From assembly GCA_944324475.1 (NCBI GenBank), contig CALUWK010000015.1, positions 1 to 39,812 of the forward strand: a DNA stretch of 39,812 nt. Direction: 5' to 3'. This document shows positions 5,363 through 30,620 of the stretch, piece after piece (position 1 is the first letter of the stretch; every line of letters starts with the position of its first letter). Source of the stretch: Candidatus Gastranaerophilales bacterium. GTDB taxonomy: Bacteria; Cyanobacteriota; Vampirovibrionia; Gastranaerophilales; Gastranaerophilaceae. The translations under genes and the position numbers were made by a program. Below the pieces are notes generated by a model that did no database searches, had not been told where the DNA came from, and saw nothing but the letters and a program-made list of their open reading frames with translations.

Positions 5363-5389
5363 AAATAAATGCGGTTTTTATAACCGCAT
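5355..5389 (-). terminator. Rho-independent terminator of the giant repeat-protein gene
   Basis: ATGCGGTT (5369-5376) pairs with AACCGCAT (5382-5389) around a 5-base loop. On the minus strand the stem is followed by TTATTTTTG. It is about 95 bases past the stop of the 1433-residue protein and overlaps the -35 of the next promoter. Confidence 0.75.
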
Positions 5390-5392
5390 AAG

Positions 5393-5428
5393 TCAAGAAA
5401 GGAATGGTTAGACTATTAACTTTCTTGA
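5393..5428. other. 9-bp inverted repeat in the 3' region of the giant gene
   Basis: TCAAGAAAG (5393-5401) is perfectly mirrored by CTTTCTTGA (5420-5428) with an 18-base interior. It lies between the giant gene's stop and its terminator, so it would be transcribed and could form a 3' stem that protects the message, or it could be a protein-binding site. No known RNA family is recognised. Confidence 0.45.
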
Positions 5429-5482
5429 TTATTGCATAAAATTGAATATTAATGCAAATTTGTTACTAAATTGTTACATATA

Positions 5483-8400
5483 CTATACGTTTTGTTTAGT
5501 ATCTTTTTGTTTTGTTATATTTACAGCACCTGTATATTTGTCAATTTCGATATGTACATATTGTCCGTTATATTTTTCTACTTCGTCAATTATTGCTCTT
5601 TTTGTTTCACCTTGATCATCATAACCTAAATCTGATAAGGTGTTTTCTATTATATCGGTTATATTATAACCTTTGTTGCTATCTATTGTGATTTTGTCAT
5701 CATTGTAAGAAATTGTTGCCATAGCTTGTTGTTGATCTCCCCACAATTCTTGCCAAGTATCCATTACTTGTTGGGTCATCGTTCCATCGGACGATATTTT
5801 TGTTTTAGTGTAATATTTATCATTTTGACCAAACATAGGACCATAGATTATTTTCGACCCGTCAGTAAATTCAACTTCCAGACTGCCGTTATCTCCAACA
5901 GATCCTTTTTTTATGCCGTAACCATTGTTTGTATACCATTCTATTCCTCTTTTTGCATGTCTTGCATTGTATTTATCTTGATGTTCATCCATTGCGTTGT
6001 ATAAATTTTCTAAAAATTTGTCATCATCATTTAAAATTGAAAATTCTTTTAATGAATCAGTTCCCATTGCATCTTCCATAATTTGTTCTTGTTGGTCATT
6101 TAAATTCGAAATTGAACTTGGAATGCAAGTTGTTGCTATAACTGCACCATTTTCATCATATTCTGTTTCAAGCATTCCTCCGTTCATTGGAACTTCTTGT
6201 TTTATTGTTTTTCCTGTTTCTGGATTTGTTATATTGCATACATACCCATATTTGGAATCAAGGGCATAGTTGTATATATACGTTTTGTCGTCTTGGGTTA
6301 TTAGTAATTCAATTTCATTTTTATTTGTATCTATTTTTATATCATCACTTTCTACTCCAAGTTCATCAATTTTTTGTTGTGCAGCTATAGCATAAGGAAT
6401 TTCAGCTCCGTTTTCAACAAGAACTATTCCATCTTTTGATTTTGCATTTGTAATTGTTCCGTTTTCATCTAATTCTATTGTTGCACCATCTTCAAAGGTA
6501 TAAGTCGTTTTATCTTGTCCTATATTTAATTGACTTAATTGTGTTTGTTCAATATTTAGGCCAATTTGTGCAAAATTATCTTTTTGATTTTGGATAATGC
6601 TTACTGCATCTTGTGCACTACTTGATAATAGCCCTTCTGAATTACCATTAATTGTTAATTGTGATAAATTTCCATTATTATCATAGCTTTCTGTTACACT
6701 GTTTTCTTCTTTAGTTGTAGAGAGAATATATCCATTTGTATCAGGTGAATACGCATATGCTATACCATCTTTACTGAAACTTATTGTTGAATCATTTTGT
6801 GTAATTTCACTGCTTTCTACTCCAAGTTCATCAATTTTTTCTTGTGCAGCTATAGCATAAGGAATTTCAGCTCCATTTTCAACAAGAACTATTCCATCTT
6901 TTGATTTTGCATTTGTAATTGTTCCGTTTTCATCTAATTCTGCAGTTGCACCATCTTCAAAGGTATAAGTTGTTTTTCCTTTATCTGTGTTTATTTCCGT
7001 TATTAATGAATCTATACCTATATTTTCTAATTCTTCTTTATAAGAATTGTTGATGTTTTCAAATGCATCTGCAGTTTCTGCTTTCATTTTTGTTTCACCT
7101 TGATCATTAATGGTCATGGTTATAATTTTATCGTTATCGCTATTGTAAATGTTGGTTTGACCATCGGCGTCATTTTTTTCAACTTTTATTCCGTTATCAA
7201 GTGTATATATTGTTATTCCATCTGCAGATTTTTCTATTTCTGATATTTTGGTGTCGGATGTAATTATTTGTGCATTTTGAAGCATTGTTTCATATGAATC
7301 TGCAAAATATACTAAATCTCCGGAAACTTCGCTTCTTAGATTAATGGCATCTCCTGTTATTTGTGCTTTTAATTGGTTTCCATTTTCGTATGAGCTAATT
7401 GTAATGCTATTGCCTTCTTTTGTATCTGTTACGGTATGTGTATAGCCGTTTTCTGTGTATGAATACACATATGCTATACCATCTTTACTGAAACTTATTG
7501 TTGAATCATTTTGTGTAATTTCACTGCTTTCTACTCCAAGTTCATCAATTTTTTGTTGTGCAGCCATAGCATAAGGAATTTCAGCTCCATTTTCAACGGT
7601 TGTAATTCCGCTTGCTTCGATAATTTCTTGAACTTCGCCATTGTTATTGTATGTGACTGATTTTCCGTTTTCAGTTGCTATTAATACACCATTTACAACT
7701 TTGTAAGTTGGAGTTTGCAGTCCTTGCTCAGTAATATTTAACGTTTTACCTTCGTTTAAAAATTGACCAATGTCATCATTTGTTAAATTTTTTCCTGATG
7801 TTATTTTTCCGCTTGCATCATATACAACTGCTTTATCTCCAGTAATCTTTGCTGTTGTTCCGTCTTCAAGAGTAAGAACAGTTGTTTCGCCTTCTGTAGT
7901 AATATTAGTTATATTCTGTTCTACGCCGATTTCAGCTAATGTTTCCGAATAGGCATCTTTTGCGCTTTCTGTTTTTGCTTCTTGTCCGCAGGGTATAACG
8001 TGAGTTACTCTGCTTTCATCAAGTGCTCTAATGTATATTCCGTTAGATGTTCCATCTGCTGTTGTTTGTCCGCCTTGGACTATAAGCAGTTTTCCGTTTT
8101 CATCATATCCATATACGGTTGCTGCAAGTGGTGTGCCATCAGCACCTGTTCTAAATACTATATCACCGGGTTGTAGCTCGTAGCCCTCTTGTATTTCGTA
8201 ATCTTTTGCAAAATCACCAAATTCATTTCGTGTAAGTGAATCTTTTTTTAATAATTCATTTAAGGTTTCACTGTTACCACCGGTTAAAATATATGCTGCC
8301 TGAATAGCTGCACTTACTGAAACTTTATTTGTAGATGGCATAGTAAAGCCTTCTGGAAGTAGTCCGTTAAGGCCATTTTTGTCTGTTCCTGCTGTACCTT

Positions 8401-9784
8401 TTTCTGTAATTTCATTTTCAGAAATAGAGTTATCGCCACCGTTTAAAATTTCATTTATTTTTTGTAGTTGATTTTGTAGTTCTTGAGAGTAGCTTGTTTG
8501 ATCTGATGTTGGCGTTTCTTCGCTTGAAGGTTGTTGCATTGTAATAGTTGATGCTGCATTTGCTGCTGCTTTTGCTATTATGCCTGTTGTTTCTGTTGCA
8601 TCTATTGACGTATCTCCATTTTCAGAATCTTGACTATATAAAAATTCTGTTGCAGTATCTTCATCAATTATTTGAGTTGATAGCTGAGTTGCTTTGGTCT
8701 CATCTACACCTATTGCTCTTAGAAATTCTCTAGCTTGGTCTTCTGTTATTTGGTTTCCATCTATTTCAGTACTTTTTAATTTATCCATAAGTTCATCTTC
8801 AGTGTATTCTTGATATCCTTCAGGAATTTCTTGTAGTGATTCGTGTAATGATGCATATATTTTTTGAGTAGCTTCATTTTCGCTTATTATTTCAATATCA
8901 TTAGTGCTAAAGGTGAATGAATAACTTCCGTCTTCTTGTTGTTTGCATATTGTTTCTTGACTATATAAAAATTCTGTCGCAGTATCTTCATCAATTATTT
9001 GAGTTGATAGCTGAGTTGCTTTGGTCTCATCTACACCTATTCCAAACAGAAAATCCCTAGCTTGTTCTTCTGTTATTTGGTTTTCATCCAGTTCAATACT
9101 TCTTAATTTATCTATAAGTTCATCTTCAGTGTATTTTTGATATCCTTCAGGAATTTCTTGTAGTGATTCGTGTAATAATGCATATATTTTTTGAGTAGCT
9201 TCATTTTCGCTTATTATTTCAATATCATTAGTGCTAAAGGTGAATATATAGCTTCCATCATCTTGTTTTTTTGCCATATTTAATATACTGTTTACTACTT
9301 GTGCTTTATCAGTATTTAGGTAGGCTTTAATATTGTTTTCTAAACTTTGTTCATTAAATATACCTTCACTATTGGGTGTAATACCTGTTGTATAAAGTAG
9401 TTCCGAAACTGTTAAATCGTCATTTCCTTTTGTATTACTTGGATCAGGATTTTGTCCGTAGTGGTTTATCCAAAAATTAATTTCATCTTCGTCAAGGACA
9501 TCTTCACTGTCTCCTTCTTTGTCTATATTTATTAATTCCCAATAGCTTTCTGCTTGTTGAACTGAAAAACCATAGCCGCCTTCTCTGTCCTCATCGTTGT
9601 CACCAATTTTTGTGCCTGCAAGCCTTTCAATAAAGTCATTTCTTGTAAAGATGGATTCTCCTGAACTTGTTGAAGCTGAATTTTCTGCACTTGTTCTTGT
9701 AAGTACCTCTTTGCTTGTATTTGGTTGAATTTTTTTTATATCAGCACCTTGCATTGCAGCTTTTATATTGTCAAGTATACCCAT
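5483..9784 (-). CDS. 1433-residue repetitive acidic protein, family not recognised
   Basis: No family is recognised. There is no signal peptide or transmembrane segment. Residues 50-130 contain EF-hand-like acidic loops (from Asp88; NDDLTVSEL near 121). Residues 174-276 and 283-385 are a near-identical tandem duplication with half-EF motifs (ELDENQIT, EIDGNQIT). A Ser/Thr/Gln linker (about 386-445) leads to NGGDNSISENEI. Residues 488-600 resemble an NlpC/P60 fold (LQPGDIVFRTG) but the positions expected for catalytic Cys and His look like Ala/Ser. From about 610 to 1175 at least seven diverged units follow a helix-L-E-I-G-V...T-Y-T-F-E-D-G pattern. A strong AAGGAG precedes the ATG. The nearest promoter resembles sigma28, suggesting expression with motility genes. 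A surface or export substrate role is a guess. Confidence 0.85.
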   Translation of the reverse strand: MGILDNIKAAMQGADIKKIQPNTSKEVLTRTSAENSASTSSGESIFTRNDFIERLAGTKIGDNDEDREGGYGFSVQQAESYWELINIDKEGDSEDVLDEDEINFWINHYGQNPDPSNTKGNDDLTVSELLYTTGITPNSEGIFNEQSLENNIKAYLNTDKAQVVNSILNMAKKQDDGSYIFTFSTNDIEIISENEATQKIYALLHESLQEIPEGYQKYTEDELIDKLRSIELDENQITEEQARDFLFGIGVDETKATQLSTQIIDEDTATEFLYSQETICKQQEDGSYSFTFSTNDIEIISENEATQKIYASLHESLQEIPEGYQEYTEDELMDKLKSTEIDGNQITEDQAREFLRAIGVDETKATQLSTQIIDEDTATEFLYSQDSENGDTSIDATETTGIIAKAAANAASTITMQQPSSEETPTSDQTSYSQELQNQLQKINEILNGGDNSISENEITEKGTAGTDKNGLNGLLPEGFTMPSTNKVSVSAAIQAAYILTGGNSETLNELLKKDSLTRNEFGDFAKDYEIQEGYELQPGDIVFRTGADGTPLAATVYGYDENGKLLIVQGGQTTADGTSNGIYIRALDESRVTHVIPCGQEAKTESAKDAYSETLAEIGVEQNITNITTEGETTVLTLEDGTTAKITGDKAVVYDASGKITSGKNLTNDDIGQFLNEGKTLNITEQGLQTPTYKVVNGVLIATENGKSVTYNNNGEVQEIIEASGITTVENGAEIPYAMAAQQKIDELGVESSEITQNDSTISFSKDGIAYVYSYTENGYTHTVTDTKEGNSITISSYENGNQLKAQITGDAINLRSEVSGDLVYFADSYETMLQNAQIITSDTKISEIEKSADGITIYTLDNGIKVEKNDADGQTNIYNSDNDKIITMTINDQGETKMKAETADAFENINNSYKEELENIGIDSLITEINTDKGKTTYTFEDGATAELDENGTITNAKSKDGIVLVENGAEIPYAIAAQEKIDELGVESSEITQNDSTISFSKDGIAYAYSPDTNGYILSTTKEENSVTESYDNNGNLSQLTINGNSEGLLSSSAQDAVSIIQNQKDNFAQIGLNIEQTQLSQLNIGQDKTTYTFEDGATIELDENGTITNAKSKDGIVLVENGAEIPYAIAAQQKIDELGVESDDIKIDTNKNEIELLITQDDKTYIYNYALDSKYGYVCNITNPETGKTIKQEVPMNGGMLETEYDENGAVIATTCIPSSISNLNDQQEQIMEDAMGTDSLKEFSILNDDDKFLENLYNAMDEHQDKYNARHAKRGIEWYTNNGYGIKKGSVGDNGSLEVEFTDGSKIIYGPMFGQNDKYYTKTKISSDGTMTQQVMDTWQELWGDQQQAMATISYNDDKITIDSNKGYNITDIIENTLSDLGYDDQGETKRAIIDEVEKYNGQYVHIEIDKYTGAVNITKQKDTKQNV
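8630..9265 (-). repeat. Tandem duplication inside the giant gene (period 327 bp)
   Basis: Two in-frame copies, 8957-9265 and 8630-8938, each encode 103 residues from (D/E)DGSY to FLYSQ with a 109-residue period. The bases are about 90 percent identical by eye, with long runs unchanged, which points to a recent duplication. Further downstream the ENGAEIPYA unit recurs at residues 731, 969 and 1124 with nearly identical DNA. Confidence 0.9.
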
Positions 9785-9817
9785 AAGTCACTCCTTATTT
9801 TTTACACACATAGTTGT

Positions 9818-9845
9818 TTATACGGAATAATGCGGGTTTACTTTA
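9818..9845 (-). promoter_or_regulatory. Sigma28 (FliA)-like promoter for the giant gene
   Basis: The minus strand reads TAAAGTAA, 12 bases, CCGTATAA. The flagellar sigma consensus is TAAAGTTT-N11-GCCGATAA. The TAAAG and the CCG are at the consensus spacing, with one extra T before ATAA. No convincing sigma70 -35 is present. The leader is about 30 bases and contains the Shine-Dalgarno. Confidence 0.5.
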
Positions 9846-9861
9846 GTGAATTTTTAAGAAA

Positions 9862-9871
9862 AATTTACAAA
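9862..9871. promoter_or_regulatory. AATTTACAAA motif upstream of the giant-gene promoter
   Basis: The same ten bases appear at 10282-10291 and, inverted, at 10218-10227 around the divergent regulators. Here the motif lies about 17 bases upstream of the giant gene's -35-like element, a suitable place for an activator or repressor. A candidate binder is the adjacent XRE protein. Inference only. Confidence 0.4.
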
Positions 9872-9879
9872 ACTTAACT

Positions 9880-10218
9880 TTATTTAATTCCTCTTGAATC
9901 TAATAGGCGCTCAACTTCTTCTATTAATGATGTTCTTAAGGTTTTGTATGTTTTTTCTTTTTCAATAAAAATATCTCCGACACCTGAGATAACGTAGTTT
10001 AAATTTATACCATAGTCAATTAATAATTTACTTAATAAAGAAAGTCCTGGCATGCTTTTTGCGTTCTCAATGTTTGATATTGCCTGTTTAGTAATGCCTA
10101 ACTCAACTGCTAATTCATCCTGAGATTTCTTTAAGAGCTTTCTTATATTTTTAAATCTAATTCCAATGTGTTCCATATAGACGGTATCCGAAATAATTAA
10201 TAAACCACGGCTTGACAT
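9880..10218 (-). CDS. XRE-family transcriptional regulator
   Basis: 112 residues with a Cro/C1-type helix-turn-helix (about residues 20-75): RFKNIRKLLKKSQDELAVEL, then GITKQAISNIENAKSMPGLS, the recognition-helix region. The C-terminal 35 residues are charged and may dimerise. Two starts are possible. The ATG at 10218 lies 7 bases after a CATAAA -10 with a perfect TTGACA -35, spacer 19. The ATG at 10176 (MEHIG...) fits the usual N-terminus of such regulators but has only a weak GGA upstream. It is transcribed towards the giant gene and sits between it and a divergent LuxR-type HTH gene. Control of the giant gene or of itself is plausible, given the shared AATTTACAAA sites. Confidence 0.85.
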   Translation of the reverse strand: MSSRGLLIISDTVYMEHIGIRFKNIRKLLKKSQDELAVELGITKQAISNIENAKSMPGLSLLSKLLIDYGINLNYVISGVGDIFIEKEKTYKTLRTSLIEEVERLLDSRGIK

Positions 10219-25559: not shown

Positions 25560-27662
25560 TTATATAGTTGCTGTTTTCATGTTTGCTCTTATTATTCCTA
25601 CTGATTTTGCCTTAATATTATTTGTAACTTCATTATAAGACATAATTGATATTTGTGGATATGTTCTTTCGATCAAGCGTCTAAAAATCAACCTTATGGG
25701 TGAAGAGCATAAAATTACAGGTTGGTTTCCTGTTTGTTGAATTGCCTTTTCAAATTCTGAATTTAAGCTATCCATCAGGCGTTTTACAAAGTCAGGATTT
25801 AGTGTTAGGCTTTCTCCGTCGGGGTTTATACCCTTGGCTATTTCTTGTTCAACTTCTTGAGTCATTGTTATAACAAGCAATTCTCCTGTGTCTGATAGAT
25901 TTTGCTTACATATTGTTCTACACAGCGCTTGTCTGCATTGTTCTGTCAGATAATTATAGTTTTTGTTGATTTTATGTTGCAAGCTCATAGTTTCAAGTAT
26001 TGTTTTTAAGTCACGTATTGAAACACGTTCTTTAAGAAGATTTTGCATGACTTGCTGAACGTCTGCTGTGGTTAACTCTTTCATTAAGTCGTTAACATAT
26101 GTTTCATTCATTTCTTTTTTAAGATTATCAATTAACTGTTGAACATCGGAACGAGTTAGAATTTCACTTGCGTTTTTCTTAATTACTTCTGTCAGGTGCG
26201 TTGATATTACTGCAGAAGAAGAAACAACTGTGTAGCCTGCGGTTTCTGCGTATTCTTTATCCTTTTCAAGAATCCAAATTGCTGGTAAATGAAAAGCAGG
26301 TTCTATTGCGCTAATTCCGACTACATTAGGATCATCTGCTCCTCCCATTGAATTCATGGCAAGAAATCTGTCGGGATATACTTCTCCTGTTTCTATTGTA
26401 ATTCCTTTTAGTTTGATTTGATATGTGTTTGGTGGTAACTGTAGGTTATCCCTAACTCTAATAGAAGGCAGAACTATACCTAAATCCAGGGCTGTCTGCC
26501 TTCTTATTTGAGAAATTCTATCTAATAAATCTCCACCCTTTTCAACATCTAAAAGGCTGACTAACCTGTAGCCTATTTCAATTTCAAGAGTTTCAACCGC
26601 TAAAAGTTCAAGCACGCTTTCTCTTGTTGCTTTTTTCTTCTTTTTACCCAGTTTTTCGGCTTTTTTAGCATCTTTTGCTGCCTGTTGAGCTTGTTTTTCT
26701 TCTTCAATTTTTTCTTTGTATTTTTTATAGCTAAATCCGCCAGTAAGAGCTGAAATGGTTAAAAATGGTATGGTTGGCATTCCTGGAACTATTCCCATAC
26801 AAAATAAAAGTCCGCTTATTATTCCAAGAACTTTGGGATTTTGGAACATTTCTTTTCTTATATCTTCTGACAGTGAATTATCAGAACCTGAAGCACGAGA
26901 TATAATTAAGCCTGTTGCAGTTGAAATAATTAAAGCAGGAATTTGAGATACTAGACCATCTCCGACAGTTAAGATTGTGTAGGTTGATAATGCTGTCATG
27001 GGTTGCATTTTCATTTGTACTATACCTATAATTAAACCGCCAACGATATTAATTACGGTAATGATTATACCTGCAGTTGCATCACCTTTTACAAATTTTG
27101 AAGCACCATCCATAGTGCCGTAAAAATCTGCTTCTCTTAAAAGCGCTTTTCTTCTTTTTTTGGCTTCATTTTCATCAATTAAGCCGGAATTTAAATCAGC
27201 ATCTATAGAGAGTTGTTTACCAGGCATGGCATCTAATGTAAAACGTGCACTTACTTCTGCAACTCTGCCTGCACCGCCTGTGATAACCATAAAGTTAATA
27301 ATTACAAGAATTACAAAAATAACAGCACCTACTACATAATTACCCCCTACAACAAATTGTCCGAATGATTCGATAACTGCGCCTGCGTCTGCTTCAAGGA
27401 GAATTAGTCTGGTTGATGTGACATTAAGACCAAGTCTAAATAGTGTAGCTATAAGAAGAATTGTAGGAAAACTTGAGTATTCAAGGGGTTCTTTTGTATA
27501 TAAACAAACAAGAAGAATTAAAACAGATAACGATATATTTAGAGTTAAAAGTAAGTCTAAAAGTTGTGCAGGGATAGGTATTACCATCATTAAAACAATG
27601 GTAACAAGACCAATAGCTAACACTATGTCATTATTTTTTAATAAATCCTTTAACTTCCCCAA
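25560..27662 (-). CDS. flhA: Flagellar biosynthesis protein FlhA
   Basis: Core export-gate protein of the flagellar type III apparatus. 700 residues, normal length. The N-terminal half has eight predicted membrane helices with the conserved FHIPEP-loop region (AEVSARFTLDAMPGKQLSID near 128-147). The long linker is Lys-rich. The C-terminal cytosolic domain carries GGDLLDRI and DPNVVGISAIEPAFHLPAIWI. The start is a TTG (27662); a GGAGG lies about 12 bases upstream. No ATG in frame gives a better N-terminus. It follows flhB by 30 bases. Confidence 0.97.
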   Translation of the reverse strand: MGKLKDLLKNNDIVLAIGLVTIVLMMVIPIPAQLLDLLLTLNISLSVLILLVCLYTKEPLEYSSFPTILLIATLFRLGLNVTSTRLILLEADAGAVIESFGQFVVGGNYVVGAVIFVILVIINFMVITGGAGRVAEVSARFTLDAMPGKQLSIDADLNSGLIDENEAKKRRKALLREADFYGTMDGASKFVKGDATAGIIITVINIVGGLIIGIVQMKMQPMTALSTYTILTVGDGLVSQIPALIISTATGLIISRASGSDNSLSEDIRKEMFQNPKVLGIISGLLFCMGIVPGMPTIPFLTISALTGGFSYKKYKEKIEEEKQAQQAAKDAKKAEKLGKKKKKATRESVLELLAVETLEIEIGYRLVSLLDVEKGGDLLDRISQIRRQTALDLGIVLPSIRVRDNLQLPPNTYQIKLKGITIETGEVYPDRFLAMNSMGGADDPNVVGISAIEPAFHLPAIWILEKDKEYAETAGYTVVSSSAVISTHLTEVIKKNASEILTRSDVQQLIDNLKKEMNETYVNDLMKELTTADVQQVMQNLLKERVSIRDLKTILETMSLQHKINKNYNYLTEQCRQALCRTICKQNLSDTGELLVITMTQEVEQEIAKGINPDGESLTLNPDFVKRLMDSLNSEFEKAIQQTGNQPVILCSSPIRLIFRRLIERTYPQISIMSYNEVTNNIKAKSVGIIRANMKTATI

Positions 27663-27692
27663 GTTGCTTCTAATTCCTCCACTTTTATTTTA

Positions 27693-28769
27693 TCATCTTC
27701 CTTTTTGTGCGTAAACGTATTGTAAAATTTCCGCAACGGCAACATATAGTTCTTGTGGTATTATACCATCAACTTCAACTAATTTGTATAAACTTCGTGC
27801 TAATGGTTTATTTTCTACGATTGGTATTCCGTTATTTTTAGCTATTTCTCTTATTTTAAACGCAATAAAATCTACTCCTTTTGCTACAACAACAGGAGCT
27901 GGGACTTTTTCAGGATTGTACATAAGTGCAACCGCATAATGAGTCGGATTTACCACAACAACATCCGCGTCCTTTACTTTTGACATCATTTTTTGTTGCA
28001 ATATTTTCATTTGGAACGAGCGGATTTTGCTTTTAATTTTTGGATCTCCCTCTGTATTTTTAAATTCATCTTTTACTTCTTGTTTGGTCATTTTGATTGA
28101 TTTGTTATATTCCCAATCTTGATATTTTTTGTCTATAATTCCGATTATTATTAATAGAATACAAATTGTTGCAAGTAATTCAAAAATAACGGAACCCATT
28201 ACAATAAAACCTGTTGTAGGATCTGCTCCTATAAGACCAAACAGGTCATTTTTTCTTTTTATTATTACGTTAAAACCAACCATGGCAACTATTGTTGTTT
28301 TTATTATTGATTTTATTAATTCAACCATTTGTCTTGGTTTAAAAATATTTATTTTTTCAAGCAGTGCTTTCATTGCAGATGACGGGGAAAGTCTTTCAAG
28401 ATTTGGTTTCAATGCTTCTTTTGCAAAAAGGGCTCCTGTTTGAAATCTCAGAATGAGCGCTGCTGATATTGCTAGAAAAGCAAAAAATAAAAGAGTTATT
28501 TCTGAGTAGTTTTTAAAATATGGTGCAAGCACACTTATTGCATCATCATTTGATATTTCATTTGGATTTAGGTGTGTTAATGTTTGAAAAAGCATATTTT
28601 TTAATTTTTCAAGCATACCTGATCCCATAGCATAAATTAAACCCAGCCCGAATGTTAAAACAAGAGAGGATGTGAAATCTTGACTTTTTGCGATATGACC
28701 CTTGTCTCGTTCTTTTTCCCGTCGTTTCGGGGTGGCTTCTTCAGTTTTTTCATTTTGTTCGTTTGCCAT
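27693..28769 (-). CDS. flhB: Flagellar export switch protein FlhB
   Basis: Controls substrate switching from rod/hook to filament export. 358 residues. The N-terminal part begins with the usual basic EKTEEATPKRREKERDKGHI, followed by four membrane helices. The C-terminal cytoplasmic domain has the self-cleavage motif Asn274-Pro-Thr-His277 in VVVNPTHYAVALMY. It follows fliR by 3 bases without a Shine-Dalgarno, so translation is probably coupled. All features needed for function are present. Confidence 0.97.
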   Translation of the reverse strand: MANEQNEKTEEATPKRREKERDKGHIAKSQDFTSSLVLTFGLGLIYAMGSGMLEKLKNMLFQTLTHLNPNEISNDDAISVLAPYFKNYSEITLLFFAFLAISAALILRFQTGALFAKEALKPNLERLSPSSAMKALLEKINIFKPRQMVELIKSIIKTTIVAMVGFNVIIKRKNDLFGLIGADPTTGFIVMGSVIFELLATICILLIIIGIIDKKYQDWEYNKSIKMTKQEVKDEFKNTEGDPKIKSKIRSFQMKILQQKMMSKVKDADVVVVNPTHYAVALMYNPEKVPAPVVVAKGVDFIAFKIREIAKNNGIPIVENKPLARSLYKLVEVDGIIPQELYVAVAEILQYVYAQKGR

Positions 28770-28772
28770 AGT

Positions 28773-29564
28773 TTATGTAAATAGCGCGCCTATTGCACGC
28801 ATATATTCTTGTATAACTCCTTGTAAATATATATTTGTGGCGCTTAAAAAAGCTAGCATTAAGAAAAATCCAATGTAAATTTTAACAGGTATTGCTACCA
28901 TATATATATTCATTTGTGGCATCATTTTACTCATCATTCCAAGCAGTACATCTGATATAAGCAGAACTGAAAATATTGGAAAAGCTACACCAAAGGCAAT
29001 TTTAAAGCATTGTGAAAATATTTCAAGCATAGAACTTACTATATTTGTGTTAAATATAGGGAAAAATCCCATAGGGATAGCATGGAAACTGTTTAATAAA
29101 GCGGCAAAAAGAAATTGATAAGCTCCTGTCGCAAGGAAAATAAGAGTTGCAAGATATATGTACAGTCTTGAGATTTCGGTTGAATTTACACCTGTAGCAG
29201 GATCTAGTGCTTCAGACATCGAAAGCCCCATTTGTATAGAAAGTATGCTTCCGCTCATTCTGACTCCTTCAAGCATTAAGTTTGCAACAAATCCTATTAA
29301 ATATCCTACAGAAAATTCTATTGCGATTAATATAATAAACTCCGCTGCGTCTTTTGGCAAAATGAAATTTTTTTGAGTATATATTATGGGATATAAAATA
29401 AAGGCAATTATCCCCGCAAACCAAATTTTTGTCATGATTGGCGCTTGTATTGTTGAAAAGAATGGTGCTGATTGAAAAAGCCCTGTTATTCTTGTAAAAA
29501 TTAGCATAAAAATAACTATGTTATATGGAGATAAAAGATTTAAAAGGTTTGGTGCTTGAGTCAA
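28773..29564 (-). CDS. fliR: Flagellar biosynthesis protein FliR
   Basis: Membrane component of the export gate. I place the start at a TTG (29564) because AAGGAG lies 6 bases before it and the resulting 263-residue protein begins MTQAPNLLNLLSPYNIVIFM, the usual FliR N-terminus. A longer frame to ATG 29606 would run 29 bases into fliQ and add an atypical lysine-rich extension. Six hydrophobic segments and the GLFQSAPFFSTIQAP, FAVNLMLEG-like and SVGYLIGFVANLMLEGVR motifs are visible. The ribosome site overlaps the fliQ stop. Confidence 0.93.
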   Translation of the reverse strand: MTQAPNLLNLLSPYNIVIFMLIFTRITGLFQSAPFFSTIQAPIMTKIWFAGIIAFILYPIIYTQKNFILPKDAAEFIILIAIEFSVGYLIGFVANLMLEGVRMSGSILSIQMGLSMSEALDPATGVNSTEISRLYIYLATLIFLATGAYQFLFAALLNSFHAIPMGFFPIFNTNIVSSMLEIFSQCFKIAFGVAFPIFSVLLISDVLLGMMSKMMPQMNIYMVAIPVKIYIGFFLMLAFLSATNIYLQGVIQEYMRAIGALFT

Positions 29565-29577
29565 TTTTATCTCCTTT

Positions 29578-29847
29578 TTATGAAATAAAGATTTTAATAT
29601 ATTCAAAGAGTTCTTTTGTGGTTGTTGTAAAAATATCTATCATCCAAGGAGCTGCAACAATTAAGACTAATAGCGCGGCAAATATTTTTGGAACAAAAGT
29701 TAATGTTTGCTCTTGAATTTGTGTTACTGATTGAATTATGCTAATTGCAAGTCCTACAACTATTGCAGACAGTAAAATTGGTGCTGCAATTATCATTGTA
29801 AGCAATATTGTTTTTTGAAAAACCGTTAATATTAGTGCTTCATCCAT
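29578..29847 (-). CDS. fliQ: Flagellar biosynthesis protein FliQ
   Basis: Small export-gate subunit, 89 residues, the normal length. Two membrane helices are separated by the conserved VGLAISIIQSVTQIQEQTLTF segment (about 26-46) with the QIQEQTL signature. An AAAGGA lies 11 bases before the ATG. It sits 14 bases after fliP. Order fliP-fliQ-fliR-flhB-flhA is the standard export-gate order. Confidence 0.97.
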   Translation of the reverse strand: MDEALILTVFQKTILLTMIIAAPILLSAIVVGLAISIIQSVTQIQEQTLTFVPKIFAALLVLIVAAPWMIDIFTTTTKELFEYIKIFIS

Positions 29848-29861
29848 AATTTTATTATCCT

Positions 29862-30620
29862 TTAAGTGACAAATCCTTCAACAAGTGATTTGGTGATTAA
29901 AAACCACCCGTCAACCATAACGAACATTATTAGCTTAAATGGCATTGCTATTGTTGTCGGCGGTAGAAACATCATGCCCATTGAGACAAGAACTGATGCA
30001 ACAACTAAATCTATTACCAAAAACGGTAAGAAGATGACAAAACCTATTTTGAAAGCTGTTTTTAATTCTGATAGAACAAATGACGGAATTAAAACATAAG
30101 TAGGCACGTCTTTTTTTGTTTTTGGCTTTTGAATTTTAGATAGTTTCACAAAAAGAGCGAGTTCTTCTTCATGTGTTTGTTTAAACATGAAGTCTCGTAT
30201 TGGAACAAGCGAATTGTCAAGTGCTTGTTGTTGCGTTATTACGTTTTTCATATATGGTTGATAAGCTGTTTCATTTATTTTTGATAACGTAGGTGACATC
30301 ACAAAGAAAGTTAATATTAATGCAAGTCCAACTATGACTTGATTTGGTGGAAGTGTTGTTGTTCCTATTGCTTGTCTTGTAAGTGAAAGTACAATTACGA
30401 TTCTAATAAATGCTGTTGTCATTATGATTATACTTGGAGCTAATGTTAGAATTGTTAGTAAGATTAAAATTTGCACACCTTGAGTAAATTCTTGAGGCGT
30501 TGATATATTTTGCATGCTTATATTAATATTTGGCAGAGACAAAGCAGCATTTGCTGCTAAATTACTGCAAAAATACAATCCTAATCCTATCCATAATTTT
30601 TTAAATTTAGAAAATAACAA
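29862..30620 (-). CDS. fliP: Flagellar biosynthesis protein FliP
   Basis: Central pore-forming subunit of the export gate. 252 residues with an N-terminal cleavable-type hydrophobic segment (LWIGLGLYFCSNLAANAA) and the two FliP signatures, TAFIRIVIVLSLTRQAIGT (about 68-86) and FLPFLVIDLVVASVLVSMGMM. The start is a TTG at 30620 with AGG 7 bases upstream. It follows accA by 21 bases with no terminator between, so it is probably in the same transcript as accD-accA. fliO is not present upstream. Confidence 0.96.
   Translation of the reverse strand: MLFSKFKKLWIGLGLYFCSNLAANAALSLPNINISMQNISTPQEFTQGVQILILLTILTLAPSIIIMTTAFIRIVIVLSLTRQAIGTTTLPPNQVIVGLALILTFFVMSPTLSKINETAYQPYMKNVITQQQALDNSLVPIRDFMFKQTHEEELALFVKLSKIQKPKTKKDVPTYVLIPSFVLSELKTAFKIGFVIFLPFLVIDLVVASVLVSMGMMFLPPTTIAMPFKLIMFVMVDGWFLITKSLVEGFVT

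Follow-up and report, generated by a model that had tools for sequence, protein, structure and literature searches.

The analysed window, 39,812 nucleotides of contig C15 from a 1.72-Mb draft genome of Candidatus Gastranaerophilales, carries a giant gene that is present in a single copy in this genome and whose product is here called P0001 (Table 1). A scan for hairpin consensus sequences around the gene, which provided the terminator-like element, found 3 in the region where 1.7 were expected. P0001 has an acidic composition, with a pI of 4.13 and a net charge of about -158. It contains four Cys residues, a content of 0.28% compared with 1.36% for the window's 19 other genes (binomial P 2e-5). 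Neither a signal peptide nor a transmembrane segment was found (highest 19-residue Kyte-Doolittle mean, 0.71), and the sequence showed no lipobox, sorting motif or transmembrane anchor. The open reading frame, pI and hydropathy scan agree with the sequence-only reading of this DNA, which had described a signal-less, acidic protein of 1433 residues. Whole-protein scans of P0001 against Pfam and NCBIfam returned only RecX_HTH1, MORN_2 and a MiiA motif, all below the cut-offs, and homology to these was set aside because the matches were weak. No family model describes the order of domains in P0001, which had already been thought to look new.

Table 1. Features of the giant gene and of its product, P0001 (positions refer to the window)
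Feature	Residues	Position	Strand	Basis or remark
Giant gene P0001		5483..9784	minus	ORF, 1433 aa, ATG start
Ribosome-binding site AAGGAG		9791..9796	minus	6 nt upstream of giant gene ATG
Terminator-like hairpin, 3' of giant gene		5369..5389	minus	consensus scan only
EF-hand-type head	44-134	9383..9655	minus	profile A2; PDB EF-hand matches
Tandem duplication, copy 1	174-282	8939..9265	minus	83% aa, 90% DNA identity to copy 2
Tandem duplication, copy 2	283-391	8612..8938	minus	83% aa, 90% DNA identity to copy 1
Degenerate CHAP domain	466-603	7976..8389	minus	profile comparison, dN/dS
Eight helix-plus-beta repeats	610-1196	6197..7957	minus	iterated profiles, each E < 1e-3
Repeat units 1-4	610-669, 678-731, 740-796, 829-894
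Repeat units 5-8	913-969, 978-1032, 1065-1124, 1133-1196
C-terminal region	1197-1433	5483..6196	minus	no family match; strongly divergent between orthologues

At least five related species carry an orthologue at this locus with its modules in the same order. The gene is in one piece in G004 (1391 aa) and in G002 (1202 aa), and contig breaks divide it in G001, G020 and G023. The shared locus is flanked by WG-repeat/panD genes on one side and HTH/glgA genes on the other. In the same neighbourhood, G022, G024, G013 and G014 encode large proteins with an EF-hand-type head and no dead CHAP module, and the remaining species of the genus have nothing at the locus or, as in G003, a different protein. 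Matches to P0001 were obtained from 8 of 116 related genomes, all belonging to its own genus, and a search of named genomes gave one relative, in Candidatus Gastranaerophilales. The sequence-only reading had recognised no described family in the protein. The gene is restricted to one lineage. The same-locus orthologues, together with the shared head and the intact CHAP relatives described below, do not fit an isolated oddity. Comparisons of G000, G001 and G004 (NG86) gave dN/dS values of ~0.16-0.32 for the head and ~0.1-0.2 for the CHAP-like module, which are rough because synonymous sites are near saturation; as judged from these ratios, purifying selection acts on both of the modules tested. 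The orthologues and dN/dS values exclude a chance ORF or a pseudogene. A phage-borne gene was also considered and rejected, as phage records gave no match and viral contigs gave none with three queries.

The slot at 5363-10218 and its syntenic counterparts (L031, L029 and L038), between the WG-repeat gene and glgA, form a hot spot which holds different large genes or none depending on the species, and in which several assemblies break inside tandem repeats. Three unrelated-looking proteins (L025:104-1189, L042:3400-6021 and L023:13098-13673) have a short N-terminal stretch ending in NFK, NFG or TFK and no signal peptide.

The head was assigned with a profile of 12 members (A2), which matched PDB chains of oncomodulin (E 0.0013, the best), parvalbumin (E 0.008), troponin C and calmodulin; one member also matched Pfam EF-hand_7. 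These matches, and the canonical EF-hand loops found in some relatives (e.g. DLNSDGRVTIGE), bear out the earlier description of EF-hand-like loops. The paired loop-and-helix pattern is that of parvalbumin, troponin C and calmodulin, but P0001 differs in having a first loop of 14 residues (DKEGDSEDVLDEDE), i.e. with a 2-residue insertion, and an imperfect second loop (NTKGNDDLTVSE); the canonical 12-residue calcium loop was not found in its head. With profile A2, heads were detected in 18 genomes of this genus, some of them weakly, and weak detection extended to one further genus. Within the genus the head precedes tails of at least four kinds, being found in the giant family, in proteins of ~570 aa with helical or YD/MORN-like tails, and in proteins of ~250 aa with a hydrophobic end.

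Downstream of the head, the two copies of the tandem duplication (period 109) are identical at 90 of 109 amino acids and 293 of 327 nucleotides, consistent with the fresh duplication of 109 residues that had been noted from the sequence. At this position the orthologues have other tandem repeats, of ~25-28 aa, followed by a short alpha/beta unit, which lies ahead of the CHAP-like module and has no counterpart in P0001. This unit appears LysM-like by eye; searches gave no LysM match, only a weak one to Phage_tail_X (E 0.18), and none in the PDB.

Residues 466-603 are the best-conserved part of P0001, with 66-69% identity to G001 and G004. In single-sequence searches of Pfam, none of the six orthologous modules matched any family, CHAP included. 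When a profile of the six was run over 286 genomes of the order, the proteins detected beyond the orthologues were mainly CHAP proteins, with some metallophosphoesterases. Comparison by hhalign of the module profile with 23 CHAP domains of the same order, picked independently by Pfam PF05257 alone, gave Prob 95.1 and a score of 51.8, whereas 15 decoy families from the same genomes scored no higher than 20.1 and 120 column shuffles no higher than 23.2. The metallophosphoesterase set reached 82% and a score of 40.7, but it had been picked by the query itself; a relationship to these enzymes was rejected, the likeness being confined to a local KGDIVF..DG motif by which the set was selected. Features shared with CHAP proteins (PF05257) are the GDIV motif, the motif I/V-x-V-x-x-(D)G-x-I-x-T-V/I-(E/Q)-G and the order of helices followed by strands. 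This order is the sole agreement at the level of fold; since the AlphaFold model of the module alone from a single sequence had a pLDDT of 39, the assignment to CHAP rests on sequence profiles.

In the combined alignment, LQPGDIVFRTGADGTPLAATVYGYDENGKLLIVQGG of the dead module lies opposite VKPGDIVIFKENGRSHTGVVASIDSNGNIKTVEGN of CHAP. The nucleophile motif WCADFV is absent, and in all six orthologues the nucleophile site has no Cys, the His site is occupied by Leu or Phe (Leu553 in P0001) and the Glu site by Gln (Gln570); nowhere in the module do all six keep a Cys or a His. The sequence-only reading had placed this segment near NlpC/P60 and supposed that the catalytic Cys and His were missing. 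The loss is confirmed by the six-orthologue alignment, but the family is not: PF00877 (NlpC/P60) matched neither P0001 nor any of the six modules, and the nearest profile tested was CHAP. NlpC/P60 and CHAP belong to the same wider papain-like superfamily, and the module shares the LxPGDIVF motif with NlpC/P60 while lacking conserved Cys and His. The module is best described as a dead, CHAP-derived domain and not as a CHAP enzyme. Most likely, P0001 does not cut the cell wall by the CHAP mechanism.

A paralogue in the same genome (L129:7825-9828, minus strand) has an EF-hand-like segment, a coiled coil and an apparently intact CHAP domain, and no signal peptide is apparent in it by eye. It and other proteins across the order, both of this EF-hand, coiled-coil and CHAP type and small CHAP proteins (L074-L126), retain the catalytic residues and have no visible signal peptide. 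Like P0001, the signal-less EF-hand, coiled-coil and CHAP proteins of Gastranaerophilales are acidic and have an EF-hand-type region ahead of the CHAP domain; P0001 differs in lacking the Cys, His and Glu as well as the coiled coil, and in continuing beyond the CHAP-like domain with the eight helix-plus-beta repeats and then a large C-terminal region. The paralogue lies beside lptC/lptA-like genes, a spot occupied in G018 and G021 by EF-hand-headed proteins (L022:8719-9165 and L023:7362-9847). Nothing relevant was found in the literature on wall hydrolases of Gastranaerophilales.

At least seven helix-plus-beta units had been recognized between residues ~610 and 1175, and iterated profiles gave one more. 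AlphaFold, run on units 5 and 6 with the other units as the alignment, predicted a helix and then an antiparallel sheet, the pattern occurring twice (pLDDT 89.6, pTM 0.83). The unit had been thought to look new, and in agreement with this no convincing family was found for it in Pfam, NCBIfam, PHROGs or PDB. Foldseek searches with the modelled pair gave nothing below E 1e-3 (best E 8.5e-3 in PDB and 1.5e-3 in viral models); first rank in PDB was taken by BF1215 (4fr9; E 8.5e-3, TM 0.25), and the best alignment with VIA-align (Z 5.7 over 55 residues, rmsd 2.5) was to folds other than BF1215. The repeats bear a weak likeness, an antiparallel beta sheet plus helix, to the YD/MORN-type and BLIP-like beta repeats of the teneurin YD shell, OspA and BF1215, but there is no significant structural match. 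Designed WD40 and Cake propellers, also matched by PDB profiles, were rejected as relatives, as the matches contained no single significant stretch and reflect a generic beta-hairpin. Over 192 genomes, the repeat-unit profile gave strong E-values only in its own genus. The modelled unit, apparently restricted to one genus, could represent a new small fold, although the absence of a match to a known fold does not prove this.

Four flagellar genes, fliP, fliR, flhB and flhA, are located on the minus strand of the same window (25560-30620), 16-21 kb from the giant gene, and four flagellin matches were found in the genome, indicating that the genome encodes a type III export apparatus. Flagellar gene content varies among Gastranaerophilales genomes (PMC4040986; PMC5877343). 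Two other observations concern flagellar domains: i) L128:9241-10692 (plus strand) encodes a stand-alone protein of 483 aa whose match to FlhA is confined to the cytoplasmic half (FHIPEP 321-656, 159 bits), and matches of like kind and size occur in most of 58 genomes, most of which also have two full FlhA genes; and ii) three very long frames (G075:C2:401045, G080:C1:803692 and G083:C157:19394; 1557, 951 and 859 aa, respectively) have a flagellin N-terminal domain.

With the chances for and against evenly balanced, P0001 may be a scaffold or adhesin-like protein without catalytic activity, probably exported as a surface or secreted protein and derived from the Gastranaerophilales family of signal-less EF-hand and CHAP cell-wall proteins. 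The head would bind calcium and may dock or fold P0001; the dead CHAP domain would retain binding of a ligand, peptidoglycan or a partner, without cutting; and the repeats would form a long, rapidly diverging beta-rich stalk. P0001 would leave the cell without a Sec signal, one candidate route being the flagellar type III apparatus. We infer export because P0001 combines low Cys content, acidic pI, changing tandem repeats and presence or absence among close relatives, as exported surface proteins typically do. The scaffold reading is further suggested by 1) the same-locus orthologues, the purifying selection and a CHAP relation above decoys and shuffles, 2) the intact EF-hand/CHAP paralogue in the genome and the occurrence of the head on different tails across species, and 3) a genome that encodes flagellins and, within this window, flagellar export genes. 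The absence of a visible export signal or anchor and the insertion in the first EF-hand loop argue against it.

That missing signal and anchor, together with the position of the giant gene among housekeeping genes, would also be accounted for by a cytoplasmic scaffold or regulator which never leaves the cell and uses the dead CHAP domain for protein-protein interaction. However, CHAP enzymes act on the cell wall, and low Cys content, strong acidity, fast divergence and changes in repeat number would be unusual in the cytoplasm; we regard such a protein as rather unlikely. Somewhat more doubtful still is a secreted effector or polymorphic toxin with the variable C-terminal part as its active end. 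P0001 is lineage-specific, signal-less and modular, the C-terminal regions of the orthologues differ, and the head is common to other tails, but no toxin family was matched in Pfam or NCBIfam and divergence extends along the whole protein, not the C-terminus alone. Moreover, the neighbouring WG-repeat gene is also found in genomes without the giant gene and is therefore no dedicated immunity gene.

Substrates of flagellar export are also signal-less, and as the window contains fliP, fliR, flhB and flhA and the genome encodes flagellins, P0001 could be imagined as a structural or accessory flagellar protein associated with the sheath or filament. This is very unlikely, since P0001 matches no flagellar family, the giant gene is missing from most flagellated genomes of the genus, and in at least two species (G002 and G004) flhA and the giant gene lie on separate contigs. 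Catalysis through a different nucleophile would find a candidate in Ser489, part of a KVS (residues 487-489) which all six orthologues share without change close to the former Cys position, where the helix that bears the Cys in CHAP begins; given the lack of a conserved His and the residues now at the His and Glu sites, an active enzyme of this kind is extremely improbable.

Members of Gastranaerophilales are common in the gut, and little has been described of their surface and secreted proteins. If the exported scaffold reading is extended to the order, there may be a Gastranaerophilales export class made up of signal-less wall enzymes with an EF-hand head, together with dead proteins descended from them, leaving the cell by an undescribed route, possibly flagellar type III, in which P0001 would be a calcium-gated, wall-linked surface scaffold; we consider this broader proposal unlikely as it stands. 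P0001 provides an example of a pseudoenzyme from a wall hydrolase family of which the apparently active form is still encoded in the same genome, and the wider puzzle is that apparently active CHAP enzymes occur across the order without a visible export signal.
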